A stretch of 42,134 nt of DNA. Source: Thermoplasmata archaeon (GTDB lineage: Archaea; Thermoplasmatota; Thermoplasmata; Methanomassiliicoccales; Methanomethylophilaceae). Under the pieces are notes generated by a model. The model was not told the DNA's origin and ran no database searches. It was given only the letters and a program-made list of their open reading frames with translations. A program made the translations under genes and the position numbers. This document shows, piece by piece, positions 1,918-42,134 of the stretch. The DNA lies in NCBI GenBank assembly GCA_015063165.1, contig SUSZ01000019.1, positions 1 through 42,134 on the forward strand. Direction: 5' to 3'. Positions within the stretch are counted from its first letter, which is position 1, and each line of letters begins with the position of its first letter.

Positions 1918-1921
1918 CCTC

Positions 1922-3190
1922 TCAGCTGCCTCTGACGCCGTGAATCAGCTCGTCGAGGATGTACATGGCCCCCTGGATTCCATAGATCGGACGGGGGATT
2001 ATGTCGTCCATCCCGGTGCAGGAATAGCCTATGGGGATGCCTATGCACCCGGTGGCCTCAGCCATGGTCAGAGCGGCGATGCCTTCGCACAGGACGACAT
2101 CGCTGTCCTCCGGAGGCTCCTTGCCGAAGGAGTCCAGAAGGTCCCTCTCCTCCAGGAACCTTTTCAGAAGCCCGACCTCATTCTCGTCGGCCCCGGGATC
2201 CACCGCCACTGCTATCGGGATCATGGAGAGATAGCTGTAGAGCCACTCCGTGATGGACCTGACCACCGATGCGGTACCTGCTATCGAGAAGGGCAGCCCC
2301 CTCGTGCGGAGGACGTTGTACTTCAAGCCCATGAACTTGTCGTAGACCTTCCTCTCGACCCTGCGGACCTTGTCCAGAGCCGGCTCGGGATCCTTCCCGG
2401 TGGCTTCGGCTATGGACTTGACCCATTCCTTGACGGCCGTGAACCCTATCGGGGCCCCGCAGGACGGCCTTATCGTCGGAACGCCCTTGGACTCGTAGTA
2501 TTCCAGAAGCCCGGCGCACATCTCCGGACAGACGACGACGTTGAACTCGGCGCGGACGGACCTCTTGAGATCCTCGATGGACGCGCCCGCTCCGGGAGTG
2601 GACAGGACCTTCAGCCCCATGCTCTCCACGAGGCCGCAGAGGTCCTCCTTCCCGGCTTCCCAGTCCTTGTCGTACAGGGACAGCCCCAGAAGGTTCACCG
2701 TCCCTGGAAGGACCTCGCTCCTTTCGGGGGCCAGATGCTGCATGACAGCGCGCAGCATATGGCCGTAGCATTCGGTCATGGGCATCGAGACCAGGGACTC
2801 GTCCATGTATATCGCCCTGTTCTCCAGGCCGCTGTCCCTGATCGCCTTCTCGTGGTTGTCCCCGATCAGAGCCGCTCCGGGGGAGTTGATTATCACTATC
2901 AGGGAGGGCTCTTTGTCAGCCAGAATCGGCAAGGCCTCCGAGGTCTTATAGAACGCCCCGTTTATGAAATCGTACTCGTCGAGATAGGATGCCGGGACCC
3001 TAGGATAGCCGTAGTAGTAGATGTCGAAGTAATCCTCCTGGGACCCCGGGGCCAGCCTCGGATAGACGGCGGTCGAACGCACCATGTGCTGGACCCTGCA
3101 TCCTCCCGGCCCGTGCAGGAAAACCGCGGCGTCCTCTATGCTCTCGACGGCCATGATCGCGCCGTTGAACCCGTCCGGGAGCGTCCTCAT
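1922..3190 (-). CDS. Nitrogenase component 1-like protein, NifK/NifE/BchB-type partner (module 1)
   Basis: Second subunit of a nitrogenase-superfamily reductase, 422 residues from the chosen start. It has the oxidoreductase/nitrogenase component 1 fold. Its N-terminus T-L-P-D-G-F-N-G-A stands where NifK has its first P-cluster cysteine, which is missing. HGPGGC (Cys31) matches the second cysteine position. The third position (I-N-S-P-G-A-A-L-I-G-D-N) again lacks cysteine. One cysteine ligand is therefore left, as in the K-type subunits of tetrapyrrole reductases. The ATG at 3190 overlaps the upstream stop (ATGA) and has GGAAGGGGG seven bases before it; an ATG at 3208 is possible but would lose that spacing. 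It is coupled to the H-D fusion upstream. True nitrogenase is unlikely. The substrate is unknown. Confidence 0.85.
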   Translation of the reverse strand: MRTLPDGFNGAIMAVESIEDAAVFLHGPGGCRVQHMVRSTAVYPRLAPGSQEDYFDIYYYGYPRVPASYLDEYDFINGAFYKTSEALPILADKEPSLIVIINSPGAALIGDNHEKAIRDSGLENRAIYMDESLVSMPMTECYGHMLRAVMQHLAPERSEVLPGTVNLLGLSLYDKDWEAGKEDLCGLVESMGLKVLSTPGAGASIEDLKRSVRAEFNVVVCPEMCAGLLEYYESKGVPTIRPSCGAPIGFTAVKEWVKSIAEATGKDPEPALDKVRRVERKVYDKFMGLKYNVLRTRGLPFSIAGTASVVRSITEWLYSYLSMIPIAVAVDPGADENEVGLLKRFLEERDLLDSFGKEPPEDSDVVLCEGIAALTMAEATGCIGIPIGYSCTGMDDIIPRPIYGIQGAMYILDELIHGVRGS

Positions 3191-5325
3191 TGGACCGCCC
3201 CCTTCCATCCTTCGGTCGGCGGGATCCTCATGATGTTCTCCAGATACTCCGCGTACATCATGGGGCCCTTGTATCCTGCACCGATCCTCTTGATCCTAGC
3301 CAGCTTGCATCCTCCTCTGACAGGATAGGCCAGATCGGATATCAGGATGTCCGGGCGCAGGGCATCCATGTCCTTCTCCAGCTTCTCCAGGGAGTATTCC
3401 TCGTCGACCCTGTCCTGATGGACTGTCGTGACCTCTGAGAAATACTGGCGGACTCCCGGGAAGACCCCTATGCGGACGATATCCGCGCCCAGATCTAGCA
3501 GGAGATCGATGATCCAGTCATTCTTCCTGTTCAGCAGGATGACCTTCTTTCCGCGGAAACGGCGAGAATGCTCCTCCAGGAATCTCCTGTAATCGGCTTC
3601 AGCTGAAGCGATCTCGGCCTCGGCCGCCTCCTGCATGCCCAGCCTCTCGCCCATCATCCGCATCCATTTCGCATGCTCCCTTATCCCCACCGGCAGAGGC
3701 GCTGGAAACGGCTCCCTTCCGGTGCGGTCGGCTATTATCTTCGAATTCACATGGTTGGTAGCGTCGCCGGAGACCAGGATGTCGATGGGCGCCCTGCAGA
3801 ACATGCGCATGTCTTCAGACGTGCATTCGTCCAGGAAGCGGCAGTTGACCTTCAGCCCGAAGACCGAAAGCATGCGGTTCAGCTCCTTCGAGCCCTTCTC
3901 CCACTGGAGATCGAAGAACGAATGCCCTATGAGATTGACGTATCCAGGCTCGGGAGCCACGGAGGTGTCTATCATCTTAGAAATCTCCACGGTGGCCATT
4001 GTCATGCCCTCGCTGTAGCTGCCGGTCATGTCGCCGTCCGCCGGGATGAACCTGATCTCCGCGTCCGGATAGTCCTCCAGAGCCCTCTTGACCACCCTCT
4101 CGGAGTCGTCTCCGATGATCCCGGGCATGCAGGTCGTCACCACGGCGATCTTCCTGCATCCTTCGTCCAAGGTCTTGTACAGGGTGTCCTCCAGATGCTT
4201 CACGCCGCCGAATATAGACACGGTGTCGTCCATCATGGTGCAACGGAGGTTGTGGGTGGGATCGGTGGCGTATATGCCCCTGCGATGCAGCCTCAGAGAG
4301 ACCGTCCCATGGGACATGTCCATCAGATACATGCAGCTGCGAGGCCCATGGAGTATGACCGTGTAATCGGTGAGCCTCATGAACGCTGCCATGGCCCCGA
4401 ACGCGGCGCAGGAGTTCATTATCTTGGTCTCACGTATTGATTTCCTGCGCTTGGAACAGGTCGCGCACGGGATTCGAGCGTCTGTCTCCCCGGACGGGGA
4501 CCTTATCTCCCTTCCAGCTGCCAGGTCCGAGAGCTGAAGATCGTCCAGAGGATGCGGATAGTAGAGAGGAGCCTTTCCTTCGGCGGCATCCGCTATGGCG
4601 TCAGCGATCTCGTCCACCCTCTTGGATATCTCGGAATCGGGGCGGAGCTCGCGAACCGTTATCCCGGCCGCTTCAGCGTCCCTGAAGGCGTAGTCGCGGG
4701 GTATGTTGGCTATGACGGGCACTCCTGTCGCCTCTGCGAACCTTCTGACTGATGCCTCCTCGTCTTCCACTCCGCGCGAGTTCAGGATCATCCCGAGAAG
4801 ACGGGGCTTGCCGGTATCGAAGTTGGCCAGCCCTTTCATTATGTTGTTGGCCGCGTACATCGACATGAATTCGCCGGATGTCACCAGGACGACCGCATCG
4901 GCGTACTCCCCTCTCAGAGGGACCGCGAAGCCTCCGCAGACGACATCCCCCAGGACGTCGTATATCTTTATATCCACGTCCAAGGAGTCGGCTCCGAGCT
5001 TCTTCAGCGTGTCGAACGTCGTTAGGATCCCGCGCCCTGCGCAGCCTATCCCAGGCTCCGGGCCTCCCGCCTCGGCGCAGATGACCCCTCCGGCCCCAGT
5101 CTCTATGACATCCTCCAACTTCCTCTGGAGGACCGGAACGGAGCGCACGTAGTCCAGGACGGTGCCCTGGGCCCTCCCATTGAGCAGAAGACGGGTGGAA
5201 TCGTGCTTCGGATCGCATCCGATCTGCATGACTTTCCTTCCCCTGGAAGCCAAGGAGTAAGACACGTTCGCGGCCATCGTGGACTTCCCAATCCCGCCCT
5301 TTCCGTAAAATGCGACCTGGAACAT
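3187..5325 (-). CDS. Fused NifH-like ATPase and NifD-like catalytic subunit (module 1)
   Basis: A 712-residue fusion of two proteins that are normally separate. Residues 1-255 are a NifH/BchL-type reductase: P-loop GKGGIGKS at 9-16, and cluster cysteines Cys95 (GCAGRG) and Cys130 (DVVCGGF), equivalent to NifH Cys97 and Cys132. A linker carries CATC (287-290). Residues 300-712 are NifD-like, with all three D-type ligands: Cys306 (NSCAAFGA), Cys331 (HGPRSC) and Cys399 (TTCMPGIIGDD). ATP-driven electron transfer to a [4Fe-4S] catalytic cluster is inferred. The start at 5325 was chosen because paralogue 2 begins at the equivalent residue and because the TATA box at 5359-5369 predicts transcription starting near 5339, downstream of the alternative ATG at 5346. 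Alternatives are a CfbCD- or Mar-like enzyme, but neither is known to me as an H-D fusion. Confidence 0.9.
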   Translation of the reverse strand: MFQVAFYGKGGIGKSTMAANVSYSLASRGRKVMQIGCDPKHDSTRLLLNGRAQGTVLDYVRSVPVLQRKLEDVIETGAGGVICAEAGGPEPGIGCAGRGILTTFDTLKKLGADSLDVDIKIYDVLGDVVCGGFAVPLRGEYADAVVLVTSGEFMSMYAANNIMKGLANFDTGKPRLLGMILNSRGVEDEEASVRRFAEATGVPVIANIPRDYAFRDAEAAGITVRELRPDSEISKRVDEIADAIADAAEGKAPLYYPHPLDDLQLSDLAAGREIRSPSGETDARIPCATCSKRRKSIRETKIMNSCAAFGAMAAFMRLTDYTVILHGPRSCMYLMDMSHGTVSLRLHRRGIYATDPTHNLRCTMMDDTVSIFGGVKHLEDTLYKTLDEGCRKIAVVTTCMPGIIGDDSERVVKRALEDYPDAEIRFIPADGDMTGSYSEGMTMATVEISKMIDTSVAPEPGYVNLIGHSFFDLQWEKGSKELNRMLSVFGLKVNCRFLDECTSEDMRMFCRAPIDILVSGDATNHVNSKIIADRTGREPFPAPLPVGIREHAKWMRMMGERLGMQEAAEAEIASAEADYRRFLEEHSRRFRGKKVILLNRKNDWIIDLLLDLGADIVRIGVFPGVRQYFSEVTTVHQDRVDEEYSLEKLEKDMDALRPDILISDLAYPVRGGCKLARIKRIGAGYKGPMMYAEYLENIMRIPPTEGWKGAVQ

Positions 5326-5437: not shown

Positions 5438-6376
5438 ATGAAAGCGGAGACAACGGCAAGGACGTTTTATTCTGTGGTCGTGGTTGCAGTCGTCGTCATC
5501 CTTTTCGCGCCTCTGGCATCCGCACTCCTGAACGTCTCGGGCAACCAATGGGACGTCGAGATCAGCACCGAGTCCGAGTACGATCTCACATGGATGGACA
5601 CAGGATGCCTCTCGTCCAACCTGACGGAGGCCATCAAAGGACAGACCGGCTGCCGCATCCTGTACGGAGAGCATTCCGATGAGGTGAACACGTCCAACGT
5701 CAGCGCCGTGTCTCAGAAGGTCATGGACAGCGGAGCCTTGAAGGCCAAAGTGGTCGATGCGAACGGGAACACCCTGAAACAGGAGAGCATCACCTACAGG
5801 AACGCCGTCGCCGAGAGGACCGTGATGGACATTTACGTGCCGGACCTCATATCCAGCATCTCGTCCATCGACCTCGTCATCGGATACAAGGGCTCTGAGA
5901 TCGTGGTCCCCGCCACATCCTCGAACGTCAAGGAGGGGAACGTGGTCCATGCCGACTTCATCACGCCCTACGTCCTGAAGTACGTCGCTCTGGCCTACGG
6001 ATGCGACGAGTACGTAGGCATCCACATGAACTACGAATCCAACATGAAGTTCAACGTCGACGTCGACACCGAGATCGACACTTCGAACTACAGGTTCTCC
6101 ACTAACGGACTGGACAGGGACATCGTGACCGGCCTCCCCGCAGAACAGACCTGCGCCGGGTCGATCGGCGGATACACGGGATTCACCATCAACGGCGGAA
6201 CGATGGAGATCGACGGGAGGAACACCAACCCGTCCGCATCGATCAGGAACTCCATGGACAAAGGAAAGGTCACCATCGCGTCCGGCAGCGACTCGATCAC
6301 GCTCTCGGACGATAGCGCCAAGGCCCTGGTCAAGGTACTCGAGGAGCTCGAGAAGAAGGCAGGAGGGAAGAGCTGA
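5438..6376 (+). CDS. Membrane-anchored extracellular protein of unknown function
   Basis: I do not recognise this 312-residue protein. One hydrophobic helix at about residues 10-30 (Y-S-V-V-V-V-A-V-V-V-I-L-F) acts as a signal anchor, so the remaining 280 residues should lie outside the cell. The body is rich in alternating beta-type residues, Ser, Thr, Asp and Asn, with four scattered cysteines and no recognisable catalytic motif. It ends in a charged stretch (E-E-L-E-K-K-A-G-G-K-S). It is first in an operon: its TGA overlaps the next ATG by one base. It is divergent from nitrogenase-like module 1 across 112 bases, so co-regulation is possible but not shown. Confidence 0.75.
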   Translation: MKAETTARTFYSVVVVAVVVILFAPLASALLNVSGNQWDVEISTESEYDLTWMDTGCLSSNLTEAIKGQTGCRILYGEHSDEVNTSNVSAVSQKVMDSGALKAKVVDANGNTLKQESITYRNAVAERTVMDIYVPDLISSISSIDLVIGYKGSEIVVPATSSNVKEGNVVHADFITPYVLKYVALAYGCDEYVGIHMNYESNMKFNVDVDTEIDTSNYRFSTNGLDRDIVTGLPAEQTCAGSIGGYTGFTINGGTMEIDGRNTNPSASIRNSMDKGKVTIASGSDSITLSDDSAKALVKVLEELEKKAGGKS

Positions 6377-6996
6377 TGCCCAGGAAGCACAGCGTGGCGC
6401 GGGGAATACTCTACGCGGCCTTCGCCGCCCTGCTCTACATAGGCGTGCCCTACGCCATCGACATGGTCCTCAAGGATCCCTCGATTGTCGGATGGGACCT
6501 GTCCGATTTCCAGCTCCAGGGCGTCTTCGACATGCTGACAAGGGCGATGAGGTTCGGAATCGTCATGGCGGCCCTGTACTTCTTCGTCGGATTCTTCCGC
6601 AAAGGGGACAAGATGCGCATAGTGGCCCAGACGGTGACGATGATCGGGAACTACGTCTGGTTCCTGTACCTGGTCAACTTCGGCAATCTCGAGGACTTCG
6701 TGAGCTTCAGGCTCAACGGTTCGGAGATCGCCGTAGGAGTCGTGGTGACCTGGTTGATGGGCGTCATGGCCTTGCTGAACCTCCTGAAGATACCGATATT
6801 CTACGGACAATATTGGGACAACAGGGAGGAGTTCCTCAGGAAGTACGACCCGGACGGGTTCGAGGTGTACAAGCTGAGCCACTACAGCGACGAGGATTAC
6901 GAGGCGGATTCAAAGGAGAAGAGGAGGAGAAGACGATGGGAATCAACATCAGAGCGTTCTACGAGGAGGCCGAAGGGGCCAGCTGCAACGGAATGA
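6376..6996 (+). CDS. Four-helix membrane protein of unknown function
   Basis: A 206-residue protein with hydrophobic segments at about residues 10-30, 58-75, 82-102 and 117-137, and a charged cytoplasmic tail. I do not recognise the family. It is coupled to the upstream anchored protein (TGATG overlap). The last 21 codons overlap the next gene in another frame, so the Arg-rich tail (K-E-K-R-R-R-R-R) may be partly a by-product of the downstream ribosome-binding site GAGGAGGA. A small frameshift cannot be excluded, but the four-helix core is intact. It may be the membrane partner of the 5438 product. Confidence 0.7.
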   Translation: MPRKHSVARGILYAAFAALLYIGVPYAIDMVLKDPSIVGWDLSDFQLQGVFDMLTRAMRFGIVMAALYFFVGFFRKGDKMRIVAQTVTMIGNYVWFLYLVNFGNLEDFVSFRLNGSEIAVGVVVTWLMGVMALLNLLKIPIFYGQYWDNREEFLRKYDPDGFEVYKLSHYSDEDYEADSKEKRRRRRWESTSERSTRRPKGPAATE

Positions 6997-7649
6997 GAAA
7001 GAAGGTCCTGAGGGCCCACGTCGAGGACGTTACCGGCCTGGAGTCCATCCTGGAGAAGGACCTCATGGTCCCGATGGAGGAAGCCAGGAAGGCGCTTGAC
7101 GACTGGGAGTCGTTCTCCGAGAGGAACTCCCTGGACCTCGACTCGGAATACGTGTACATCGGCAGCCTGAAGAAGGCCGACAAGCCTGCCCTGGAGCCTC
7201 TCGCGAAAGAGGTGTGCACCGGCTGGACCGACATGGAGAAGCTCTCCGAAGAGGACAGGAAGAAGGTCCTCGACGTCGCGGACGAGACCCTGACCGGATG
7301 GGACATGCTCTCCTTCGACGATATGAACTCCATATGCGCCAGATGCCCGCTCTCCTGGGACAAGGGACGCGGATGCATCGGTGCTTTTGGACCGGACAAC
7401 AGCCTTCTGCCCTCGATAGCGGCGAAGCACGGATGCCCGATAGTCGCCTCCGTCCCCGATCGCGTGGAATCCGGAGAGGCCCTCTCCCTCGAAGAGACCG
7501 CCGACCTGGTCAAAGAATGCGCCGTCCTCCGCGAGAAGCTCCCGGAGGAGGGGAAGATGATGGTGAGACGCTACTCCGGCCCCGTGGACAGGATGGAAGC
7601 CGCCGCCAAGGCCTGCGTCTCGGAGAAGTGCAGGATGTGCTTTTTCTGA
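6936..7649 (+). CDS. Cysteine-rich protein of unknown function
   Basis: A 237-residue soluble protein with ten cysteines. The most striking cluster is C134-x2-C137-x9-C147 in C-A-R-C-P-L-S-W-D-K-G-R-G-C. The C-terminus has C227-x4-C232-x2-C235 just before the final Phe-Phe. Such spacing suggests an iron-sulfur cluster or zinc site, which is inference only. The ATG at 6936 follows a strong GAGGAGGA site (6921-6928) and starts 61 bases inside the preceding gene. The long upstream extension of this frame was rejected because it is antiparallel in composition to the membrane protein. The gene ends four bases from the convergent flavoprotein gene. Confidence 0.75.
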   Translation: MGINIRAFYEEAEGASCNGMRKKVLRAHVEDVTGLESILEKDLMVPMEEARKALDDWESFSERNSLDLDSEYVYIGSLKKADKPALEPLAKEVCTGWTDMEKLSEEDRKKVLDVADETLTGWDMLSFDDMNSICARCPLSWDKGRGCIGAFGPDNSLLPSIAAKHGCPIVASVPDRVESGEALSLEETADLVKECAVLREKLPEEGKMMVRRYSGPVDRMEAAAKACVSEKCRMCFF

Positions 7650-7653
7650 GCCT

Positions 7654-8235
7654 TCACTCGTATCCGTTCAGACGCATCAGGGCGGATACCATGTTCTTCA
7701 TCAAGCCCATGACGCCCTTCATGCCGGACCTGTCGTCCATGTACTGAGGGGAGTTCAGGGCGTGGACGATGGGCAGAGGGTTCGATCCGACCACCAGCAT
7801 CCCGTTGTTCAGCATGAAGTCGACCATCTGGTTGTAGACCAGCGACCCGCCCTGGTGGGAATAGACCGCGATGGCGCCCCCCACCTTTCCTTGGAGGCCG
7901 AGGTCTCCGTTCTCGAAGACCAGCTGAGCCCTCTCCAGGAAGGTCTGCATCACGCTGGAGCAGGCTCCCGCATAGGTGGGCGAAGCCAGAAGGATCGCAT
8001 CCGCGACGCGCATCCTGTTGAGGAGAGGGTTGAACCCGTCGTCCTCGTCCATGCACCTGCCGTCTCCGCGCATCTCGCAGGTCAAACAGACGTTGCAGTT
8101 GGTGAACTTGTATTCGTAAAGGTGGACCAGCTCGAACTCCACCCCTTCTCTCTCGAACTCGTCCTGCAGGTCGTTCAGAATATTGGTAGTGTTCCCGAGG
8201 GGGCGAGGACTACCGTTTAAAGCCAGCACCTTCAT
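7654..8235 (-). CDS. Iron-sulfur flavoprotein, Isf / NADPH-dependent FMN reductase family
   Basis: A 193-residue flavodoxin-fold protein. The FMN phosphate loop is N-G-S-P-R-P-L-G-N-T-T at residues 7-17. A compact cysteine motif C47-x2-C50-x2-C53-x7-C61 matches the [4Fe-4S] motif of methanogen iron-sulfur flavoproteins. S-P-T-Y-A-G-A (about 95-101) is the second FMN-contacting loop. Isf proteins pass electrons between ferredoxin and small acceptors and are linked to oxidative-stress defence in methanogens. The start codon is the first ATG, 20 bases from the AT-rich promoter region shared with the SUF operon. The gene is transcribed alone and converges on the Cys-rich gene. Confidence 0.88.
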   Translation of the reverse strand: MKVLALNGSPRPLGNTTNILNDLQDEFEREGVEFELVHLYEYKFTNCNVCLTCEMRGDGRCMDEDDGFNPLLNRMRVADAILLASPTYAGACSSVMQTFLERAQLVFENGDLGLQGKVGGAIAVYSHQGGSLVYNQMVDFMLNNGMLVVGSNPLPIVHALNSPQYMDDRSGMKGVMGLMKNMVSALMRLNGYE

Positions 8236-8309
8236 GGCGCTGTCATAGTATTATCTATTAAATACGTGTCCTTAAAGAATCCTTTATTCCGAAGTGGACT
8301 GGATGTGGG

Positions 8310-8317
8310 TTATAAGT
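8310..8317 (+). promoter_or_regulatory. TATA box of the sufCB operon
   Basis: TTATAAGT, about 40 bases before the ATG at 8353. Transcription would begin near 8337, so the in-frame ATG at 8266 cannot be the start. Confidence 0.55.
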
Positions 8318-8352
8318 ATCGAATTAGCATATTACCGACAACAGGCGATTCA

Positions 8353-9099
8353 ATGACCGAGATGCTAAAAATCATGAATCTTCACGCCGAGGCAGGCGGA
8401 AGGAAGATTCTCAAAGGAGTCAATCTGACGGTCGAAGAGGGGGAGACATGCATCCTCTTCGGACCCAACGGCTCCGGAAAATCCACTCTCCTTTCCACTA
8501 TCATGGGATACAGCACCTGCGAGGTGACAGAAGGAAGCATCCTATTCAAGGGCAAAGACATCACCGGACTGAGCGTCGACGAGCGCGCCAGAATGGGGAT
8601 CGGGATGATGATGCAGAGACCCCCCAACATCTTCGGAGTGAAGCTGGGCGACCTCGTCAAAGCGGCATCCAGCAACCCGAAGGTCCTGGACCAGGCCGAG
8701 GATTTCAAGATGAGCGGCTTCCTGGACAGGGACATCAACGTCGGGTTCTCCGGAGGAGAGATCAAAAGATCCGAACTCCTGCAGCTCACCGCACAGAAGC
8801 CCGAGTTCATCCTCCTGGACGAGCCGGAATCAGGAGTGGACCTCGAAAGCATCGATCTCATCGGAGAGAAGGTCAAGAACCTGCTGTACGACGACAGAGA
8901 AGGGCTGAGCCGCCAGAGGCACGTGTCCTCGCTGGTCATCACCCACACCGGACAGATCCTCGACTACATCGGTGCCGACCGCGGATACGTCATGAAGAAC
9001 GGCAGGATCGAATACAGCGGCAGGCCTTACGATCTGCTCAAACACATCAAACAGCACGGCTATGGAGAGTGCGACGAATGCCGATCGACGAATCAGTGA
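8353..9099 (+). CDS. sufC: SufC-type Fe-S cluster assembly ATPase
   Basis: ATPase of the SUF iron-sulfur cluster scaffold, 248 residues. Walker A is GPNGSGKS at 37-44, the signature S-G-G-E-I-K-R-S-E matches the SufC form (SGGEKKRNE), and Walker B is ILLDEPESGVD. It binds SufB and powers scaffold rearrangement during cluster assembly in the cytoplasm. The start at 8353 follows from the TATA box position and from the SufC fold beginning there. It overlaps sufB by 22 bases. With no sufD, sufS or sufE nearby this is the minimal two-gene SUF arrangement (SmsCB) known in methanogens. Confidence 0.93.
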   Translation: MTEMLKIMNLHAEAGGRKILKGVNLTVEEGETCILFGPNGSGKSTLLSTIMGYSTCEVTEGSILFKGKDITGLSVDERARMGIGMMMQRPPNIFGVKLGDLVKAASSNPKVLDQAEDFKMSGFLDRDINVGFSGGEIKRSELLQLTAQKPEFILLDEPESGVDLESIDLIGEKVKNLLYDDREGLSRQRHVSSLVITHTGQILDYIGADRGYVMKNGRIEYSGRPYDLLKHIKQHGYGECDECRSTNQ

Positions 9100-10280
9100 A
9101 AAAGGCTCTCAACAAGAAAGGGACCTATGGAAAGGACATAGACCTCGAGAAATACGACGAAGCCGACAAGGACTCGGACCAGATCGACGACCTCGAGAGC
9201 ACGAAGTACAAGGAGTACATGGAGCATGTCGGAGTCGTCGCCGACGAGATGGCGCGTTCCGGAACCCTCATGTTCATCAACAACGGACTGAGCCACTGCA
9301 GCCCCAAGGTCCAGGAGGGACTGGAGCTCATGACGGTCAGCGAGGCGCTGAAGGTCCACCAGGGGCTCAAGAACTTCATGTGGAAGGCCATGGACCCCGA
9401 GAAGGACAAGTACACCGCCAAGACCTATCTCGAGGACGGAGACGGATTCTTCATCCGCGTGAAGCCCGGGTACCATATCCAGAGCCCCATGCAGACCTGC
9501 ATGCTCCTCAACCAGGACAAGGCGATCCAGAACATCCACAACATAATCATCGTGGAGGACGGAGCGTCCCTGGAGATGATCACCGGATGCACCACCACCC
9601 GCCACGCCAACGACGCCCTGCACGTAGGAGTCACCGAGATCTACATCGGCGACAACGCCAACCTCACCTATTCCATGATCCACAGCTGGGGAGACAAGAC
9701 CAACGTCCGTCCCAGGACCAGGACCGTCGTGGGGAAGAACTCCAACTACACGAACAACTACGTCATCCTCAACCCCGTGGGAGACCTCCAGAGCTTCCCC
9801 GTGTCCGACCTGTCCGAGGGCGCGTCCACCACGTTCAACACCATGTGCATCGCTCACGCGGGATCCAACATCGACACCGGCGGAATGGCCAATCTCAACG
9901 GATTCGGCTCCAGGGCCGAGATCATGAGCAGGAGCATCTCCATGGGCGGAAAGATGTGCGCCCGCGGACGTCTCGTCGGAAACTCGCCGGGAGCCAAAGC
10001 TCACCTCGAGTGCAGGAGCATCATCCTGAAGGACGGCGGATCCACGCTGGCCATCCCCGAGCTGGAAGCCCACGTAGCCGACGTCGAGATGACCCACGAG
10101 GCGGCGGTCGGAAAGATCGCCAGGGACCAGATCGAGTATCTGATGTCCAGAGGACTGGACGAGGACCAGGCGGTCAGCATGATCGTCAGAGGATTCCTCT
10201 CCGGAAGCATCAGCGGATTGCCCGAAGAGCTCCAGAACGAGATCGACGCGGCGATCGAGCAGGCCAACCTGGGAGACTGA
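9078..10280 (+). CDS. sufB: SufB/SufD-type Fe-S cluster scaffold protein
   Basis: Beta-helical scaffold partner of SufC, 400 residues, shorter than the E. coli SufB (495). The C-terminal core contains the conserved T-H-E-A-A-V-G-K-I segment and a cysteine in H-L-E-C-R-S-I, typical of SufB/SufD. The acidic N-terminal extension (residues 15-45) precedes the beta-helix. A SufB homodimer would carry the cluster and bind two SufC. Fe-S supply matters here because the window encodes at least four Fe-S proteins, including both nitrogenase-like modules. The ATG at 9078 lies inside the end of sufC, and a terminator hairpin follows. Confidence 0.92.
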   Translation: MPIDESVKKALNKKGTYGKDIDLEKYDEADKDSDQIDDLESTKYKEYMEHVGVVADEMARSGTLMFINNGLSHCSPKVQEGLELMTVSEALKVHQGLKNFMWKAMDPEKDKYTAKTYLEDGDGFFIRVKPGYHIQSPMQTCMLLNQDKAIQNIHNIIIVEDGASLEMITGCTTTRHANDALHVGVTEIYIGDNANLTYSMIHSWGDKTNVRPRTRTVVGKNSNYTNNYVILNPVGDLQSFPVSDLSEGASTTFNTMCIAHAGSNIDTGGMANLNGFGSRAEIMSRSISMGGKMCARGRLVGNSPGAKAHLECRSIILKDGGSTLAIPELEAHVADVEMTHEAAVGKIARDQIEYLMSRGLDEDQAVSMIVRGFLSGSISGLPEELQNEIDAAIEQANLGD

Positions 10281-34029: not shown

Positions 34030-34806
34030 TCATTTCAATGCCGAACCCAGTATTACATGGGGACGACCGCCATGGTTGACGACCTCGCATTCCACCCCAT
34101 AAACATCGCGGATGTTTTCTTCTGTTATGACCTCCGCCGGATCGCCTATCGCACGCAACTTGCCAGGGTATTCCATCAATATGACCTTGTGGGCGTACTT
34201 TGCCGCAAGATTGAGATCGTGGCTTATCATCAGCACGAGCTTGTCATCCGCCTCCGCCAGCGCACGGAGCATCTCGATGACGAAAACCTGGTGCCTGACG
34301 TCCAGATTGGAGGTTGGCTCATCGAGAAGCAGTATCTCCGTCTCCTCCACCAGCCCCCTGGCCAGAGCCACCCTCTGATGCTGTCCGGCCGACAGCTTGG
34401 AGAACTGCTGCATCGCCAGGTCCCCTATGTCCAGGAGCTCCATCACGTTATGCACCATAGCCAGATCCTTCTTGCTGGTCCTCCATTTCTGGTGGTTGTG
34501 CCTACCTATCAGGATAGTGTCCATGACGGTCATCGAGAACAGGTCGTCGGAGAACGGCGGCACATACCCCACGACCTTCGACACGTCTTTGATGCTCATC
34601 TCGCTGACAGACCTGTCGTTGATCCTCAAATCGCCCCCGGTAGGCTTGTTTATCTTGATGAGGCACTTCATCAAAGTGGACTTGCCGACCCCGTTGGGGC
34701 CTATTATGCATACCAGTCCCGGACCGTCCAACGTGAACGAGACGTCGTCCAACACCATGTGCTGAGGCGAGTATCCGAATGAAAGATGCTGGAAATCTAG
34801 CTTCAT
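34030..34806 (-). CDS. FecE/BtuD-type ATPase (system D)
   Basis: ATPase of importer D, 258 residues. Walker A is I-I-G-P-N-G-V-G-K-S-T, signature LSAGQHQRV, Walker B I-L-L-L-D-E-P-T-S-N-L-D. Nearest relative in the window is the system B ATPase. Last gene of the operon binding protein, permease, ATPase; four bases separate it from the permease gene. Confidence 0.93.
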   Translation of the reverse strand: MKLDFQHLSFGYSPQHMVLDDVSFTLDGPGLVCIIGPNGVGKSTLMKCLIKINKPTGGDLRINDRSVSEMSIKDVSKVVGYVPPFSDDLFSMTVMDTILIGRHNHQKWRTSKKDLAMVHNVMELLDIGDLAMQQFSKLSAGQHQRVALARGLVEETEILLLDEPTSNLDVRHQVFVIEMLRALAEADDKLVLMISHDLNLAAKYAHKVILMEYPGKLRAIGDPAEVITEENIRDVYGVECEVVNHGGRPHVILGSALK

Positions 34807-34810: not shown

Positions 34811-35929
34811 TCACCACATATTGCTGTTCTTGCGGAGCAACAGCCAGAGGAACATGGGTCCGCCCATGAACGCAGTTATCACACCCACCTGCAGTATCGA
34901 GGGGTAGATTATCGTCCTGCCTATGAGATCGGCCGCTATCAGCAGAGCAGCACCGAACGCCGCCGATGCGGGCAGGAGATATCTGTTGTCGGCCCCCACG
35001 AATATGCGCGCGATGTGTGGCGCCACCAGGCCGACGAACCCTATCAGGCCCACGAAACCAACATTGACAGCAGCCACCATCGCGACGATCAGCAGCAGGA
35101 ACCTGCGCATCGAATCGACGTTCACGCCCATGGCCGTAGCATTCTCATCCCCGGTCGCCAGTATGTTGAGCCTCTTGGTCAGGACCATCATTATCGCCAG
35201 CCCGACTGCGGTGGTGGACAGCATCAAAGGAACAGCGCCCCACCCGACGAACGTCAGAGAACCGACGGACCACTTGTACAGATCGGCGAGATCGTTGGGA
35301 TCGGCCATCAGCTTCAGCACCGTGCTCATCGCATTGAAAACGTACATCACCGAGATTCCCGCCATTATCATGGTGACGGGCGACACGCTACGCAGCTTGG
35401 ATATCAGCAGGATGATGAGGACCGGAACGAGAGAGAATACGAAAGCGTTCACGAACGTCGATATGTAGTACACGTCGGACACTATGGTCACGCCCAACAG
35501 GGAGGAAATGGTGACCCCGAACACGGCACCAGAGGATACCCCCGTGGTATACGGGTCGGCCAACGGATTCTTGAGCGCGTTCTGCATGACGACCCCGCAG
35601 GCCGCCAGCGCACTCCCGACGATCATGCCTATCACTATGCGGGGCATCCTTATGTTGATGACCAGATAATCCTTCAGGAACTCCGGGCTTCCTTCCGGAG
35701 GCGCCCCATGCAACAGATGGTTGAAGATGATCTCGTATGTTTCGAAGAAGCCAATCGGGGTATCTCCGATGGTGATCGCGACACCCATGACTATGATCAT
35801 AACTGTAATGCATGCGCAGATGAAGACCCATTTAAGGACGATGGCGCGATGGTACTCGTTGAATTCCGGGCTGTCCTCGGGAACATTCTCTAGGTTCCTC
35901 CTGTATCTCTTGACGGCATCGCGAACCAC
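34811..35929 (-). CDS. FecCD/BtuC-type permease (system D), start disturbed by a possible frameshift
   Basis: Membrane subunit of importer D, 372 residues from a GTG at 35929, with FecCD motifs A-C-G-V-V-M-Q-N, N-P-L-A-D-P-Y-T-T-G and G-F-V-G-L-V-A-P-H. The reading frame stays open upstream to the binding-protein stop, and the extra codons (D-R-L-I-S-D-V-V-R-D-A-V) match the system B permease (P-V-I-S-G-K-V-R-N-A-V). No start codon exists in that extension, but an ATG at 36013-36015 lies one base out of frame next to a run of six G. One more G would give a 29-residue longer protein. A sequencing error or an unstable tract is likely. The 7-base gap to the binding-protein stop would then look normal for this operon. 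Confidence 0.88.
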   Translation of the reverse strand: MVRDAVKRYRRNLENVPEDSPEFNEYHRAIVLKWVFICACITVMIIVMGVAITIGDTPIGFFETYEIIFNHLLHGAPPEGSPEFLKDYLVINIRMPRIVIGMIVGSALAACGVVMQNALKNPLADPYTTGVSSGAVFGVTISSLLGVTIVSDVYYISTFVNAFVFSLVPVLIILLISKLRSVSPVTMIMAGISVMYVFNAMSTVLKLMADPNDLADLYKWSVGSLTFVGWGAVPLMLSTTAVGLAIMMVLTKRLNILATGDENATAMGVNVDSMRRFLLLIVAMVAAVNVGFVGLIGFVGLVAPHIARIFVGADNRYLLPASAAFGAALLIAADLIGRTIIYPSILQVGVITAFMGGPMFLWLLLRKNSNMW

Positions 35930-36022: not shown

Positions 36023-37369
36023 TCAGGCTTTAGGCTCCCACTTATAGACCAGGAAGTTCTTGTTGTCCTCGCTGTAGCCGTAGTAGTGGAACTGGTTGTA
36101 GTAGTCCACAAGGGTCTGATAAGCATCGTCCATGTCAATCTGGCCCGGATACAGCATCCCTGCGAGATACAGTAGCATCCCGACCCCGTAGTACGAATTG
36201 AACATCGTGTATGCGAAACCTATAATGTTGCCGTTCTCGTACGCCTGGGTCCCTTTCAGGAACTCAGGGAAGGTCTGGATCGCAGCAGGGCAGTCCCTCG
36301 CCTGATTGCCGGTGAAAGACCATATCAGATAATCAGACGGATGGTTGACGAAGTAATCGACATCCAGGTTGCTGATCTGGTATGTGTCCCCCTTTCCGAA
36401 ATTCTGCGCTGGAAGCTCCAGGATCCACTGCAGATCGGGGTAGGAGCGGTCGCTTCCCTGTGCGTGGATGGTGAGGTTGGTGGCGTTCGCATCGTTGGCC
36501 CCTTTCAGAACATAGTAGCTGTTATAGTTCTGAGGGAGGATGTCCTTCACCGCATCGTTGATCTTGTCCATTGTCTTGTCGTAGAAGTCGATCCATTTGC
36601 GGGCGTTCTTGTTGGCGTCAAGAAGGAATCCCATGGTCACCACCTCGGACAGGCAGTCGATCCCCTGTCCCTGTATCTCGATGACCTGGGTGGGCGAGTG
36701 CATTGCTCTGAGGTCTTCGCGTGCCTGTTTCTGGTAGGTCCCGTATCCGATGAATACGTCCACACCACTGTTGTGGATGGCGTCCGCATCGATGGTCTTG
36801 AAGTTCCCAATGATGGGGAGATCCTTGCTCGGATAATCCATGTAGTGACCGGACGTGTTCTCGTCGACATATTTGACCTTGTCCCAAAGGCCGAGGATCG
36901 TCATGAGATAGCCCACCTCGTAGTAGCCCACCGCGATCGTATCACATTTCACAGGATATTTGATGGTGTTGGTGACGACCGCATTGTCACGGGGGTGGTC
37001 GGCACGTGCGAAGTGAAACTCGTCGTAGCTTATATCGACGCTCTCGCGGTTTATTATCTTCTGGACAAGTTTGACGTCGCTATCATCGATCTTGCCATCG
37101 AGGTTGGCGTCAGCATACTTGTTGTTCTTCTGGTTCCAGGTGACCTTTCCGCTTATTATGCTGTTGATGTAGTCGACATCATTCTTGTCTATGTAATCGT
37201 CGTTGTTGGCGTTGCCGTACACCACGAGCCTTCCGGTCGGAGACGCTACATCGCCCTTATGATCGCCGCTGTCGCTGCTTCCGCTGTTGTTCAATAACAT
37301 GAACGCTGCGGCCGCTACGATGATTATGCACACCACGGCGAATATTGCAATGATTGCTTTGTTATCCAA
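36023..37369 (-). CDS. Anchored substrate-binding protein with dockerin-like module (system D)
   Basis: Receptor of importer D, 448 residues from a TTG at 37369. A membrane helix (about 4-26) is followed by a Ser/Gly/Asp linker, a dockerin-like calcium-loop pair at 50-108 (N-A-N-N-D-D-Y-I-D and D-A-N-L-D-G-K-I-D), and a helical-backbone binding domain at 120-448. The module is nearly the same as those in the system B receptor. AAGGTGG at 37376-37382 lies five bases before the TTG, a better fit than the GTG at 37378, and an out-of-frame ATG at 37373 stops at once. It is divergent from the methyltransferase-ArsR gene of nitrogenase-like module 2. Confidence 0.88.
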   Translation of the reverse strand: MDNKAIIAIFAVVCIIIVAAAAFMLLNNSGSSDSGDHKGDVASPTGRLVVYGNANNDDYIDKNDVDYINSIISGKVTWNQKNNKYADANLDGKIDDSDVKLVQKIINRESVDISYDEFHFARADHPRDNAVVTNTIKYPVKCDTIAVGYYEVGYLMTILGLWDKVKYVDENTSGHYMDYPSKDLPIIGNFKTIDADAIHNSGVDVFIGYGTYQKQAREDLRAMHSPTQVIEIQGQGIDCLSEVVTMGFLLDANKNARKWIDFYDKTMDKINDAVKDILPQNYNSYYVLKGANDANATNLTIHAQGSDRSYPDLQWILELPAQNFGKGDTYQISNLDVDYFVNHPSDYLIWSFTGNQARDCPAAIQTFPEFLKGTQAYENGNIIGFAYTMFNSYYGVGMLLYLAGMLYPGQIDMDDAYQTLVDYYNQFHYYGYSEDNKNFLVYKWEPKA

Positions 37370-37411
37370 ACATACCACCTTCGGATGATAGTTCCAATTC
37401 GGTTGTGCGAT

Positions 37412-37492: not shown

Positions 37493-38551
37493 ATGGAACA
37501 AAACAAATTTTGGGACGATTACGCAGATAAATGGGGGGAAATGACAAGATATGACCTGTTCTCGGATTTCAATCTGGAACAGACGTTGCGTTCGCTCCCT
37601 CTGCCTGGGCGCAGGCTCAAGATACTGGATCTAGGAACCGGTGCTGGAAAGGTCGCGATACAGGCATCCCTCCTAGGCCATACAGCCGTGGGGATGGACT
37701 CCAGCGAGGAGATGATCAAGCAGGCGCGCCTCTCGGCCAAGAAGTTCAGCGCTCACATCATGCTCGTCAAAGGAGATGCCTGCTACACCAACTTTCCGAA
37801 AGGGATGTTCGACGTCGTGGTGGCAAAGGACCTGCTTTTCTGCATCGACAACATAAAAGAAGCGGTCCTCCACTGGAAAGACCTCCTCGCCCCAGGCGGA
37901 TTCCTTGTGATAATAGACGGTAACTACCTGTTCTACAAGAAGAACCCCCTGTACCAGAACAGAAGAGAGCAGATGTTCAGAAGATACGGCAAAGACGATC
38001 TGGAGATGCTTCTCGGCCCCGACATCGATCCCAGCAGACTCGAGAAGGACGCGGGCGACAACTATTCCAACAGGATACGCCGCCCCAGCTGGGAGCTTTG
38101 GTTCCTTCCAGGCATAGGTTTCGAAGACTTCACGATAAACTTCAGAGACATAGCGGAATGCGAGGTCTTCATGGACAGGGGCATGATCAAAGCCCCCTGC
38201 AAATATATTCTGACCGCATGCAGGAAATCCGTAGAGGAGAAAGCCTCTGATGATGCAGATCGGAAGATTCCCTCGGAGAGAGTGGACGACAGGATAATCG
38301 CCGCCCTCGCCAACAAGGTCAGGTTGGACATAGTCAAGATGCTGGAGATAGAGGACATGTCCGTGACGCAAATCTGCGAACAGCTGGGACTGGCTCCGAA
38401 CGACGCATCATACCATCTGCGCATGCTCCGCAATGCAGGGATACTGTCCAGCGAGGTCAAAGGGAAAAACAGGGTGTACAGCCTCGTGAGCCCGAAGCTG
38501 ATAAACACCCTGACCAACACCCTGTACAAGCTGGAAAATGGGATGAAATGA
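37493..38551 (+). CDS. SAM-dependent methyltransferase fused to an ArsR-type winged helix
   Basis: A 352-residue fusion. Residues 40-245 are a class I methyltransferase with SAM motif I I-L-D-L-G-T-G-A-G (44-52) and the acidic motif II residue in V-G-M-D-S-S-E. Residues 262-345 are an ArsR-like DNA-binding domain (recognition region D-A-S-Y-H-L-R-M-L-R-N-A-G). The usual metal-sensing cysteine pair is absent; only Cys295 is present. It may be both a modifying enzyme and the local regulator, sensing its substrate or SAM. It lies 80 bases upstream of nitrogenase-like module 2 on the same strand and divergent from importer D, an ideal place to control both. The methyl acceptor is unknown. Confidence 0.88.
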   Translation: MEQNKFWDDYADKWGEMTRYDLFSDFNLEQTLRSLPLPGRRLKILDLGTGAGKVAIQASLLGHTAVGMDSSEEMIKQARLSAKKFSAHIMLVKGDACYTNFPKGMFDVVVAKDLLFCIDNIKEAVLHWKDLLAPGGFLVIIDGNYLFYKKNPLYQNRREQMFRRYGKDDLEMLLGPDIDPSRLEKDAGDNYSNRIRRPSWELWFLPGIGFEDFTINFRDIAECEVFMDRGMIKAPCKYILTACRKSVEEKASDDADRKIPSERVDDRIIAALANKVRLDIVKMLEIEDMSVTQICEQLGLAPNDASYHLRMLRNAGILSSEVKGKNRVYSLVSPKLINTLTNTLYKLENGMK

Positions 38552-38631: not shown

Positions 38632-40719
38632 GTGTTTCGCATCGCGGTCTACGGAAAGGGCGGAATCGGCAAATCAACGATATCGTCCAATATCTCATTC
38701 ATCCTGTCGTCCAGAGGCTACAGCGTCCTCCATGTAGGCTGTGACCCCAAGCATGACTCCACAAGGCTTCTGACAAAAGGAGAAACCATCGAAACATTAG
38801 CGACTGGCATCCGGTCGGATCCACTAGTCATAGGCTCCAACGGCGTAATGTGCGCCGAATGCGATGGGCCAGAACCCGGCAGAGGATGCGCCGGAAAAAG
38901 ACTGGAGATTTTGCTGGACAGGCTGTCCTCGGTGGATTCGGACTACCGCTTGTACGATGTTCTGGGGGATGTTGTTTGCGGAGGATTCTCCATACCTGCG
39001 CGCAGAGCCAACGTAGATGCGATACTCATAGTCACATCAGGCGAGTTCATGTCGCTCTACGCTGCGAACAACATACTCAGAGCGCTCGAAAGAATCAATC
39101 CGACGAAATGCGTGATGGGGCTGATCCTCAACTCACGGGGAGACGATTCGTCGGCCGAAACCTATTCCAAAGCCGTCGGCATACCGATCGTCTGCCGTAT
39201 CGAGCGTTCCAACCTGTTCTGCAGGTCCGAATCGGAAGGGAGATGCCTGTCTGACATGTTCCCCGACTCCAATCCTGCGGCTTCCATGAGGAGACTTTGC
39301 GACACGATAGAAGCGAATGGGCCCCTGTTCGCTCCGTCCCACCTTTCCGAGGAGGGCATGACGGCCATCGCGAGAGGGACCCCTGCTGATGGAGCGCATC
39401 ATGATGAAGCTCCGCGTCCAGGCTGCAGGTTCGTCATGGATGACCCTATCCGCGGAAGGCCGAGAGGGGAGAACAACGTCGTCCATTCGTGCGCTTCCCA
39501 TGGAGCCGCGGACGGGGTCATGAAGATACGCGACGCCGCGCTGATACTCGACGGCCCGAGGACATGCTCCTACCTCATGGAGATGGCGTTCATGCGCCGC
39601 ATGGCCAACGGACTCGCCGAAAGACGCGGTTCGTCGTTCTCGCCAGGCATATACAGCACGTCCCTTGATGGCCGCATCCTGGCTACCGACCCCGAGTCCG
39701 CCGTGGACCTGGCTGTGGCTAAAGCGAGGGCGGACGGATTCAGATTCATGTTCCTCGTTCCAACATGCGCTTCCGCGATGGTGGGGTCCGACATCCGCAG
39801 AATCGGGGACGCGACAGGACGCAGACACGGAGCCGAGGTCATACCCGTGGATGCGGACAGCCCCCTCCTCCACGGAAGGTTCGGAGGGAGCACGGGCCTG
39901 GTCGAAGCGCTCGTGAGCAGAATGCGCCCGATGGAGACCGAAAGCGGAACGGCCAATCTCATCGCCAGATGGTTCTACGGATACGGGAGGGACTGGGCGA
40001 GGGATGTGTTCGACGACATACTATCCAGGATGGGGATCAGAGTACGCTTCCGCTTCCTGGACTATTGCGAAATGAAGGACATAGACGGATTCTGCAAAGC
40101 GGAGTACGACATACAGCTCGGATCCACCCCTTTTAACAATTGGATGTGCGAGCGCATCTCCAAGTCCACCGGCAGGCGCCCTGCGCTGAAGCTGGACATA
40201 CCTATGGGCTTGGAGAAGAGCCTGGAATGGACCAGGAAGATAGCAGAATATGCGCCCGAGCTGGGATGGCGCCAAAAGGACGCGGAAAAAGGCCTCAGTG
40301 AGGAGTACGAGCGCGGAATGTCGGCATACATCGACAGGCTCGAGGGAAAAAGGGTGGCGCTCCATTGCTCGACCGGAAACGACATGGCATGGCAGACCGA
40401 AGCCCTCCGCTTCTTAAGAGCCGATCTGGCGGTCATAGCCTATTCGAAGTCGGCAGGACCTAGAATCCAGGAGCATGACAGCGACTTAGGAAGAGCGAGG
40501 ATGCTGACCGGCATAGGCCCATGCGCCATGAAAAGGATAGCCGAGGACGATTCCATCGACATCGTAATCACGGATGACCTCTACGGGGACGCGAGACAAG
40601 GTTTCAAGTGGGCGCCCCTCGGTTCGAAGTACTATGGGATCAAAGGATCGGTCCACTGGGCGCGCATAGTGTCGGATTCCCTCAGAACCTGCAATCCCAC
40701 ATGGGAGACGGGGCTATGA
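38632..40719 (+). CDS. Fused NifH-like ATPase and NifD-like catalytic subunit (module 2)
   Basis: A 695-residue paralogue of the module 1 fusion, starting with GTG. The H part (1-230) has P-loop GKGGIGKS (9-16), cluster cysteines Cys86 (GCAGKR) and Cys116 (DVVCGGF). A linker of about 50 residues follows, then the D part (280-695) with Cys287 (HSCASHGA), Cys312 (DGPRTC) and Cys379 (VPTCASAMVGSD), the three D-type ligands. The H part also differs from module 1 (GRGCAGKRLE against GIGCAGRGIL), so the copies are old and probably not redundant. The GTG is fixed by comparison with module 1. A TTGATTAAG element at 38602-38610 could drive a leaderless transcript, or it may be read through from the methyltransferase gene. 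Substrate unknown. Confidence 0.9.
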   Translation: MFRIAVYGKGGIGKSTISSNISFILSSRGYSVLHVGCDPKHDSTRLLTKGETIETLATGIRSDPLVIGSNGVMCAECDGPEPGRGCAGKRLEILLDRLSSVDSDYRLYDVLGDVVCGGFSIPARRANVDAILIVTSGEFMSLYAANNILRALERINPTKCVMGLILNSRGDDSSAETYSKAVGIPIVCRIERSNLFCRSESEGRCLSDMFPDSNPAASMRRLCDTIEANGPLFAPSHLSEEGMTAIARGTPADGAHHDEAPRPGCRFVMDDPIRGRPRGENNVVHSCASHGAADGVMKIRDAALILDGPRTCSYLMEMAFMRRMANGLAERRGSSFSPGIYSTSLDGRILATDPESAVDLAVAKARADGFRFMFLVPTCASAMVGSDIRRIGDATGRRHGAEVIPVDADSPLLHGRFGGSTGLVEALVSRMRPMETESGTANLIARWFYGYGRDWARDVFDDILSRMGIRVRFRFLDYCEMKDIDGFCKAEYDIQLGSTPFNNWMCERISKSTGRRPALKLDIPMGLEKSLEWTRKIAEYAPELGWRQKDAEKGLSEEYERGMSAYIDRLEGKRVALHCSTGNDMAWQTEALRFLRADLAVIAYSKSAGPRIQEHDSDLGRARMLTGIGPCAMKRIAEDDSIDIVITDDLYGDARQGFKWAPLGSKYYGIKGSVHWARIVSDSLRTCNPTWETGL

Positions 40720-42038
40720 TGACCGTTCCGGACGGCCTCCTTGGCGCCGCCCTCGCCGCAGAGACGATCGGCCTGTCCTGCGCTCTGGTAAACGGCCCTG
40801 GAGGATGTCGCTCGCGGATGCAGACGCTCCTGCACGATCTGGCCCCTGGGATCCATGACGGGACCGCATGCTGCAGGTCCAGCTTCTTCAGCAGGCAGCA
40901 GCACCTGCCTTGCACATTTCTTGACGACGAGGACCTCGTATTCGGATCCGAAGACAAGGTCTCCGAGGCTGTGCGCACGGTTACATCTATCACCGGAAGG
41001 CGCCCTCTGGTGGTAGATACGCTCGCAGCATCCATGCATTGTTATGACAGCCCATCTGACACCATATCCATTGCTGAGGACCTCTCTGAGATGGGGTTCT
41101 CCGAGGGGTACGACACCGCCGCATGCGCGATACTCGCAGAAACGGACCTGGACGGAGGAAACGACGGCTCCGTCAACATACTAGGCTACGGGGTCACCGA
41201 CCTCGGATGGAAGCAAGGATCAAGGGAAATCGAGCGGCTGCTAGCGCTGATGGGCGTCAAGATAAACTGCGTACTAGGGTGCATGCCGGACCCCGACGTT
41301 GCGAAAGGCCTGGGAAAAGCCGCTCTGAACATCATGGTCCGTCCAGAGCTGTGCAGACGCACATCCGACCATCTGGAGAAGAGGTTCGGAATCCCTAGCC
41401 TCAGACCGACCGCTGGAGCCCCGGTCGGATACCCTTCAACGCGCTCTTTCGTCCGCGAAGTGGCAGATGCGATGGGTGCAGACCCATCCCCTGCCCTAGA
41501 ATTCATAGACGAGGAGGCGAAATCGGTCCATTCCGAGCTCAACGGATACGACCGCGCCATTCGCGGATTGCACTCCAAAGGATTCGCTATCGTCGGAGAA
41601 TCCTCGACGACATATCCCCTTATGAGATGGCTCATGGAGTCGTTCGGAATGGCCCCCTTCTCGGTGGAACTCCTGGACAGCGAATATGAGAGGGAGACCT
41701 TGGACCTTCTGGAATCGTCGGGATTCTCCGATGCCGTCGGCGGCCCTGACCATGATTCGGAGATAGTGTTCTGCGACGGATTGAGAGCGCTCGAAGGAAG
41801 GCTCAACCAGCCCTTCTTGAGCTTCGTGGAAACTGGGATGCCGTACGGAAGAATGGTAAACCTGGTCGGAAGGACGCTCGTCGGAACGACAGGCTGCAGG
41901 TATATACTGGACGAGATGATGAACGGACTGATCAGATTCAGATGCGGACAGCCTACAGATCCCGAGCTCCTGCCTAAGGCACAACGACATTGCATGCACC
42001 GAAAAACTTATAGTATATTACCTAACAATTTACAATAA
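40716..42038 (+). CDS. Nitrogenase component 1-like protein, NifK/NifE/BchB-type partner (module 2)
   Basis: A 440-residue K-type partner of the module 2 fusion. The N-terminus T-V-P-D-G-L-L-G-A matches module 1 (T-L-P-D-G-F-N-G-A), and N-G-P-G-G-C (Cys31) is the only conserved ligand cysteine; the first and third NifK positions lack cysteine. The ATG at 40716 overlaps the fusion stop (ATGA) with GGGAGACGGGG before it; the longer frame from 40608 has no support. Together with the D part it should form the catalytic heterodimer with a [4Fe-4S] cluster held by four cysteines. It is not a FeMo-cofactor nitrogenase. Confidence 0.86.
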   Translation: MMTVPDGLLGAALAAETIGLSCALVNGPGGCRSRMQTLLHDLAPGIHDGTACCRSSFFSRQQHLPCTFLDDEDLVFGSEDKVSEAVRTVTSITGRRPLVVDTLAASMHCYDSPSDTISIAEDLSEMGFSEGYDTAACAILAETDLDGGNDGSVNILGYGVTDLGWKQGSREIERLLALMGVKINCVLGCMPDPDVAKGLGKAALNIMVRPELCRRTSDHLEKRFGIPSLRPTAGAPVGYPSTRSFVREVADAMGADPSPALEFIDEEAKSVHSELNGYDRAIRGLHSKGFAIVGESSTTYPLMRWLMESFGMAPFSVELLDSEYERETLDLLESSGFSDAVGGPDHDSEIVFCDGLRALEGRLNQPFLSFVETGMPYGRMVNLVGRTLVGTTGCRYILDEMMNGLIRFRCGQPTDPELLPKAQRHCMHRKTYSILPNNLQ

Positions 42039-42062: not shown

Positions 42063-42134
42063 ATGTTCAGAATACGTGAGCTTCGATGCTTCCTGGTTGA
42101 ACCTCGATTCCAATTCGGAAATCAGGAATTCGCG
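42063..42134 (+). CDS. Possible start of a further gene, cut by the window end
   Basis: An ATG at 42063 opens a frame that continues to the last base (24 codons, M-F-R-I-R-E-L-R-C-F). The sequence between module 2 and this ATG is AT-rich (a promoter is possible). Too short to judge. Confidence 0.2.
   Translation, partial: MFRIRELRCFLVEPRFQFGNQEFA

Follow-up and report, generated by a model that had tools for sequence, protein, structure and literature searches.

In this study, we analysed a contig of 42,134 nucleotides (C31; the window hereafter) from a Thermoplasmata archaeon of the family Methanomethylophilaceae, whose genome (G000) spans 2.28 Mb and is 99.9% complete, and we found that the window carries near its end a two-gene system, HD2-K2 (module 2), in which a fused NifH-NifD-type protein is followed by a NifK-like partner. 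On the grounds of conserved residues and predicted folds, HD2-K2 is very probably an ATP-dependent two-component reductase of the nitrogenase superfamily with cluster ligands of the type found in chlorophyllide oxidoreductase (COR) and dark-operative protochlorophyllide oxidoreductase (DPOR). With its H-D fusion, its adjacent K gene and its monophyletic H, D and K parts, module 2 belongs to a family of HD-fused nitrogenase-like (NFL) proteins in the Methanomassiliicoccales. We give about even chances to a fuller scheme, in which this COR/DPOR-like reductase acts on a probable tetrapyrrole and is served by two upstream elements, a methyltransferase-ArsR protein (MT-ArsR) and a Fec-type importer (importer D). 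Few reactions of the nitrogenase superfamily are known so far, and its Group IV keeps adding to them, as with F430 synthesis, methylthio-alkane reduction and isethionate reduction. Our literature search returned no description of HD-fused NFL proteins in this methanogen family, nor of MT-ArsR-Fec fusions.

Cluster ligands and enzyme class of HD2-K2

The HD2 gene (38632..40719, forward strand) has a GTG start and encodes 695 residues, of which 3-246 match the Pfam domain Fer4_NifH (E 2.9e-59), a NifH-type ATPase and [4Fe-4S] reductase domain, and 287-647 match Oxidored_nitro (E 5.9e-33), a NifD-type catalytic domain. K2 (40716..42038, forward strand, 440 residues) is likewise an Oxidored_nitro protein (E 2.2e-26) and constitutes a NifK/BchB-type catalytic partner. 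A reading made from the sequence alone had placed a fusion and a K-like partner at 38632-42038, repeating the gene order and 4-base overlap of another module in the window (module 1); the coordinates proved exact, Pfam confirmed the domains, and a stop/start ATGA is present both at 40716..40719 on the forward strand (module 2) and at 3187-3190 (module 1). Such an ending is usual, being found in 37 of 55 HD genes across the family, and HD2 and K2 may be translationally coupled through it.

The class assignment draws on the cluster ligands in the alignments. In the H domain of HD2, the P-loop (38653-38676) and both Fe-protein cluster cysteines, Cys86 (38887-38889) and Cys116 (38977-38979), are kept. 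Cys287 (39490-39492), Cys312 (39565-39567) and Cys379 (39766-39768) of the D domain occupy the columns of NifD C62, C88 and C154, and Cys31 of K2 (40806-40808, within GPGGC; all these residues are encoded on the forward strand) occupies the column shared by NifK C95, the BchZ Cys and BchB Asp36. The Asp of the PDG motif in K was also considered as the equivalent of BchB Asp36 and was ruled out, since Asp36 aligns with Cys31. Thus, the NifH-type P-loop, two cluster cysteines per subunit and Oxidored_nitro catalytic subunits of the nitrogenase superfamily are all present, and, judged by ligand columns and not by spectroscopy, three ligands from D and one from K are available for a single [4Fe-4S] as in DPOR and COR. 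The columns of NifK C70 and C153 hold no Cys in K2, and those of NifD C275 and H442 hold Gly in HD2; C275 is kept in the NifE and Mar/Nfl D references. Neither the large-cluster ligand nor the P-cluster ligands in K that mark NifHDK and NifEN are therefore seen in the alignment, and the same ligands of MarHDK are missing as well. The AlphaFold models (predicted local distance difference test, pLDDT, 82 for HD2 and 81 for K2; predicted template modelling score 0.83 for K2) are consistent with these alignments: in Foldseek searches K2 superposes best on BchB (template modelling score 0.72-0.76), and the HD2 model matches the NifH-type fold.

HD2-K2 resembles COR (BchXYZ) and DPOR (BchLNB) in that a NifH-type ATPase feeds a D/K-type heteromer bearing one [4Fe-4S] with three D ligands and one K ligand. 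The fourth, K-side ligand is Cys in COR, as in K2, and Asp in DPOR; the K2 fold is closest to BchB. Unlike both enzymes, HD2-K2 has its H and D parts fused, forms a separate clade, shows low identity and comes from a non-photosynthetic methanogen, and K2 carries extra conserved cysteines and a C-terminal CGQP motif which is specific to the module-2 clade. CfbCD belongs to the same superfamily, is also found in methanogens, and has a [4Fe-4S]-type catalytic part that acts on a tetrapyrrole, but CfbD is a homodimer with neither K nor H fusion. Moreover, the genome has a complete canonical cfbB-cfbD-cfbE-cfbC cluster on contig C50, and HD2 scores 217 bits against the CfbC model (cut-off 402); together with the trees, these results rule out CfbCD paralogy. 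MarHDK and IsrHDK of Group IV are NifHDK-like, as HD2-K2 is, and reduce non-nitrogen substrates. However, Mar keeps the large-cluster Cys and the P-cluster ligands, according to a published account of cluster content in Mar and DPOR (PMC12552129), whereas the HD-K modules do not, and, unlike in the Mar/Isr systems, no radical-SAM (S-adenosylmethionine) partner was seen at the HD2-K2 locus.

The HD-K family and the place of module 2

Trees were computed with BchLNB and BchXYZ of Roseobacter, NifHDKEN of Rahnella, Mar-type proteins of Chlorohelix and Nfl proteins of Treponema (annotated plasmids), along with the CfbC and CfbD of the genome itself. Every HD-K module fell into one family (support 98/98 for H, 99 for D and 100 for K) apart from Nif, Bch, Mar and Cfb, with the D halves of the fusions on the D side and the K proteins on the K side of the tree. 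There was no clade with Mar and no grouping with BchN/Y or BchB/Z, and, owing to long reference branches, the deep position of the family with respect to Bch, Nif and Cfb is uncertain. The module-2 clade received 100% support in each of the H, D and K trees, and the three parts have therefore been inherited together.

Module 1 consists of HD1 (3187..5325) and K1 (1922..3190), both on the reverse strand and identified by Pfam and the trees. It falls in a different clade of this family, and other species carry near relatives of it (91% identity in H). Identity is 36% between HD1 and HD2 (48% in the H part, 31% in the D part) and 29% between K1 and K2. The suggestion that the two modules are clearly diverged thus holds, and a near-identical recent duplication is excluded, as the two represent old, separately conserved lineages within one separate HD-K family. 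In contrast, the description of module 2 as a second copy is only partly apt: a diverged second module is real, but the genome holds five HD fusions with an adjacent K (two in the window and one each on contigs C27, C40 and C13), and the nearest paralog of module 2 is the C40 module (HD 48%, K 53%), a typical member of the module-2 clade, and not module 1. It had also been proposed that the two modules act on different compounds or steps. Their deep divergence and different conserved neighbourhoods make this likely, although the substrates themselves can only be inferred. Module 1 lies in a conserved block (window 1-10280) with an ABC-2 exporter, an FMN reductase and Suf-like genes, which is present in many species of the genus.

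HD-K modules are widespread in these methanogens. Oxidored_nitro matches, CfbD included, were found in 29 of 30 searched genomes of the genus, many of them with several HD-K modules. K-type relatives at E<=1e-20 extend to several families of the order, and among 120 sampled genomes of the class K-type matches at E<=1e-50 were confined to the Methanomethylophilaceae. The module-2 K clade comprises 16 loci in at least 15 genomes of the genus, with 42-55% identity to K2, and two other genera of the family have it as well, clearly separated by score. In a pattern-limited scan of the named genome collection, the clade appeared only in Methanomethylophilaceae-type metagenome-assembled genomes, mostly from sheep, deer and buffalo gut. 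A "fused nifH/nifE" of Methanomassiliicoccus intestinalis, which a published account (PMC4153887) names solely to mark the place of a replication motif nearby, with no analysis of its function, clade or context, is probably a member of the same order-wide family of HD fusions.

Within its clade, the window copy stands out. The branches of HD2 and K2 are the longest or nearly so, being the longest in the H tree (0.92) and the D tree (0.93), and at columns that are otherwise invariant HD2 has 15 and K2 has 9 substitutions of its own, compared with 0-4 in close clade mates. One of them turns His307 of HD2, in the HGP loop next to a cluster Cys, into Asp, and the codon fit of both genes is weaker. 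The window copy evolves unusually fast, which may reflect relaxed constraint or a new substrate. It is conceivable, albeit rather unlikely, that it is being lost or is taking up a new function while the C40 copy carries the function of the clade, a view compatible with a COR/DPOR-like reductase for the clade as a whole. The intact cluster cysteines, P-loop and switch motifs, the open frames without stop or frameshift, and the conserved linkage to MT-ArsR and the importer argue against this view.

Neighbouring genes of module 2

Neighbourhoods were compared within 6 kb of 25 module-2-clade loci and 35 other HD-K modules (60 in total); the Fisher p values given below are optimistic, as kin loci were counted as independent. 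A CbiK/CbiX-family chelatase gene was present at 5/25 module-2-clade loci and at none of the 35 others (p 0.01), in at least three contexts and two genera. A diverged CbiK (L022 7384-8157; L056 15863-16636; L057 5453-6226) is encoded on C40 of the same genome and in genomes G025 and G026. Its copies are 74-78% identical, and it was found in only 3 of 31 genomes, always beside module-2-clade genes. A canonical CbiK in G019 and a CbiX located 111 bp downstream of K in G044, which belongs to another genus, both keep the metal-site histidines. In the CbiK-like neighbour of the C40 paralog, the two metal-site histidines expected of a CbiK cobaltochelatase are replaced (GHG to GRG, GDH to GEE), and the best match of the diverged CbiK in the Protein Data Bank is the heme-binding protein FetB, a porphyrin chelatase of Porphyromonas (PMC13402209). 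Together, these two features suggest that the diverged CbiK is probably a tetrapyrrole-binding rather than a metal-inserting protein. The chelatase-family association, found on C40 and in relatives, is a better clue to the substrate than the MT-ArsR/importer locus.

MT-ArsR (37493..38551, forward strand) combines a class I SAM-dependent methyltransferase with GTGAG motif and a C-terminal ArsR winged helix. The latter scores 64.2 bits against HTH_metalloreg of NCBIfam (curated cut-off 55), as expected of the ArsR/SmtB type, and lacks the usual alpha-3 CxC metal-sensing site. Importer D is encoded divergently on the reverse strand by a dockerin-bearing periplasmic-binding protein identified by Pfam (SBP; 36023..37369, start at 37369 or 37378), a FecCD/BtuC-type permease (34811..35929) and an ATP-binding cassette ATPase (34030..34806). 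Between the SBP gene and MT-ArsR lies a candidate ArsR operator (37381..37397, TCGGATGATAGTTCCAA), which matches the palindrome TTGGA-N7-TCCAA with one mismatch. This match alone is not significant; the argument rests on conservation, as the palindrome is common to the divergent promoters of MT-ArsR/importer cassettes (L055, L059, L061, L119, L121, L129, L130, L133, L152 and L153). The genome itself has 12 exact sites, 7 of which have a FecCD gene within 5 kb (binomial p 2e-4, with 12% assumed as the expectation). The palindrome is therefore likely a regulon operator, and MT-ArsR most likely regulates the importer, probably as the repressor of importer D and possibly also as a modifying enzyme. 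A search for the palindrome upstream of HD2 found no operator.

An MT-ArsR gene was present at 6/25 module-2-clade loci compared with 1/35 other modules (p 0.017), and the closest relatives of the window MT-ArsR sit at module-2 loci (59% identity in G018, 37% in G021). When linkage to module 2 was mapped on the MT-ArsR tree, 3 changes sufficed, compared with 5.4 in shuffles (4 of 500 were as low), and yet a single clade of module-2-linked MT-ArsR was rejected by the approximately unbiased test. Moreover, MT-ArsR divergent from SBP-(MT)-FecCD-ATPase is a common cassette in the genus, mostly without HD-K. The link to module 2 is thus enriched and partly co-inherited, yet facultative, and a strictly dedicated module-2 regulator is ruled out.

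The sequence-only reading was accurate as to the upstream methyltransferase-ArsR gene and the divergent importer, and the neighbourhood is conserved, recurring in G018, G021 and G009 and, in another genus, in G042 and G043. Its compact locus for uptake, modification and reduction survives as an enriched linkage only, because the cassette is autonomous and most module-2 loci lack the MT-ArsR/importer pair. As to co-occurrence with module 2, MT-ArsR is enriched and FecCD genes are not (9/25 versus 21/35). The window MT-ArsR gene shares the strand of HD2 and precedes it by 80 bases, and co-transcription is therefore possible; in G018, G042 and G043, MT-ArsR and the module-2 genes are tail to tail.

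Proposed reaction, alternatives and other HD-K modules

In the proposed mechanism, a dimer of NifH-type domains with one [4Fe-4S] would hydrolyse ATP and pass electrons one at a time to another [4Fe-4S], held between D and K, which would in turn reduce an organic ring compound in the D-K cavity. Given the H-D fusion, only two H domains would be present in an (HD)2K2 heterotetramer, that is, one Fe-protein dimer, and its reductase would be tethered rather than freely exchanging. The cluster type and the chelatase-family neighbours in relatives make a tetrapyrrole the likeliest substrate, a view we hold with moderate confidence. At the window locus, importer D may bring the compound in, although we regard this step as doubtful, and MT-ArsR would repress the importer through the TTGGA-N7-TCCAA operator and might also methylate the ligand.

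Several observations weigh against this scheme. In the H-part tree, the family does not stand beside the Bch proteins, with the reservation of long branches, and the diverged CbiK is not an ordinary chelatase. Twenty of the 25 module-2-clade loci have no chelatase within 6 kb (many of the contigs concerned are short), and none is in view around the window copy. FecCD genes are no commoner beside module 2 than beside other modules, and, with about 30 FecCD-type permeases in the genome and four importers in the window alone, importer adjacency by itself means little as evidence for the substrate.

Alternatively, HD2-K2 may reduce an imported non-tetrapyrrole ligand, such as a metallophore or another metal complex taken up by Fec-type importers, and so release the metal. 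The abundance of such importers, which lie within 6 kb of 30/60 HD-K loci, and the resemblance of MT-ArsR to metalloregulators are consistent with this reading. Nevertheless, it is unlikely in view of the DPOR/COR-type ligands, the chelatase-family neighbours specific to the module-2 clade and the missing CxC site of the ArsR domain. Equally unlikely is a biosynthetic role, in which HD2-K2 acts on an internally made tetrapyrrole in a side branch of F430, corrinoid or siroheme type and the adjacent importer is incidental. Chelatase-family neighbours fit this role as well, the cfb cluster implies sirohydrochlorin-type precursors, and most module-2 loci are without MT-ArsR and importer, but the enriched MT-ArsR/importer linkage, recurring in two genera, speaks against it. 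That HD2-K2 is a true nitrogenase, a cofactor-assembly enzyme such as NifEN or a large-cluster reductase of the Mar/Isr type is extremely improbable: although CfbC/NifH profiles come closest to the H domain and, among chains of known structure, those of NifE and NifD type gave the D profile its best scores, the ligand columns rule it out (no equivalents of Cys275 and His442, no second and third K cysteines), the HD-K modules form a separate clade, and no nifB/marB-type gene is present at the locus.

HD2-K2 is one member of a whole family in methanogens of livestock, of which a genome may hold as many as five modules in addition to CfbCD, and the fused layout and cluster type point to ring reduction. 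The identity of the substrate would show what gut methanogens scavenge or build and extend the superfamily by a new reaction, and the two-gene fused layout offers a handy system for the docking of a tethered Fe protein. More speculatively, and with a probability well below even, ruminant-gut methanogens might use an expanded H-D-fused, COR-like family to remodel tetrapyrroles that they scavenge from the diet, the host or other microbes, and every clade might have a substrate of its own. Module 2 would in that case be the reductase of a metallotetrapyrrole brought in from outside, which a binding protein derived from a chelatase would present in some relatives, under the control of the MT-ArsR repressor.

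Other HD-K modules showed features of their own. HD proteins of the C13 type (L023 1227-3221 on contig C13; L107 and L108) lack the first cluster Cys of the D domain, and their cluster must therefore differ or be absent. Modules of the C27 type (L021, L101, L102 and L106) adjoin tandem FecCD genes, several with a flavodoxin-like gene beside HD. In G020, G027 and G063, two different HD-K modules lie near each other in one locus (L085, L078 and L146). A single in-frame TAG was found in HD or K genes of G009 (L055 9113-11185 and 7833-9116), G001:C23, G007:C1 and G011:C90; those of G009 fall at poorly conserved, non-cysteine positions, and these codons reflect either pyrrolysine readthrough or decay. 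Finally, K2 ends 96 bases before the contig end, and a 17-mer in this interval (window 42097-42113) also occurs at C3:29458, so that C31 may end in a repeat.

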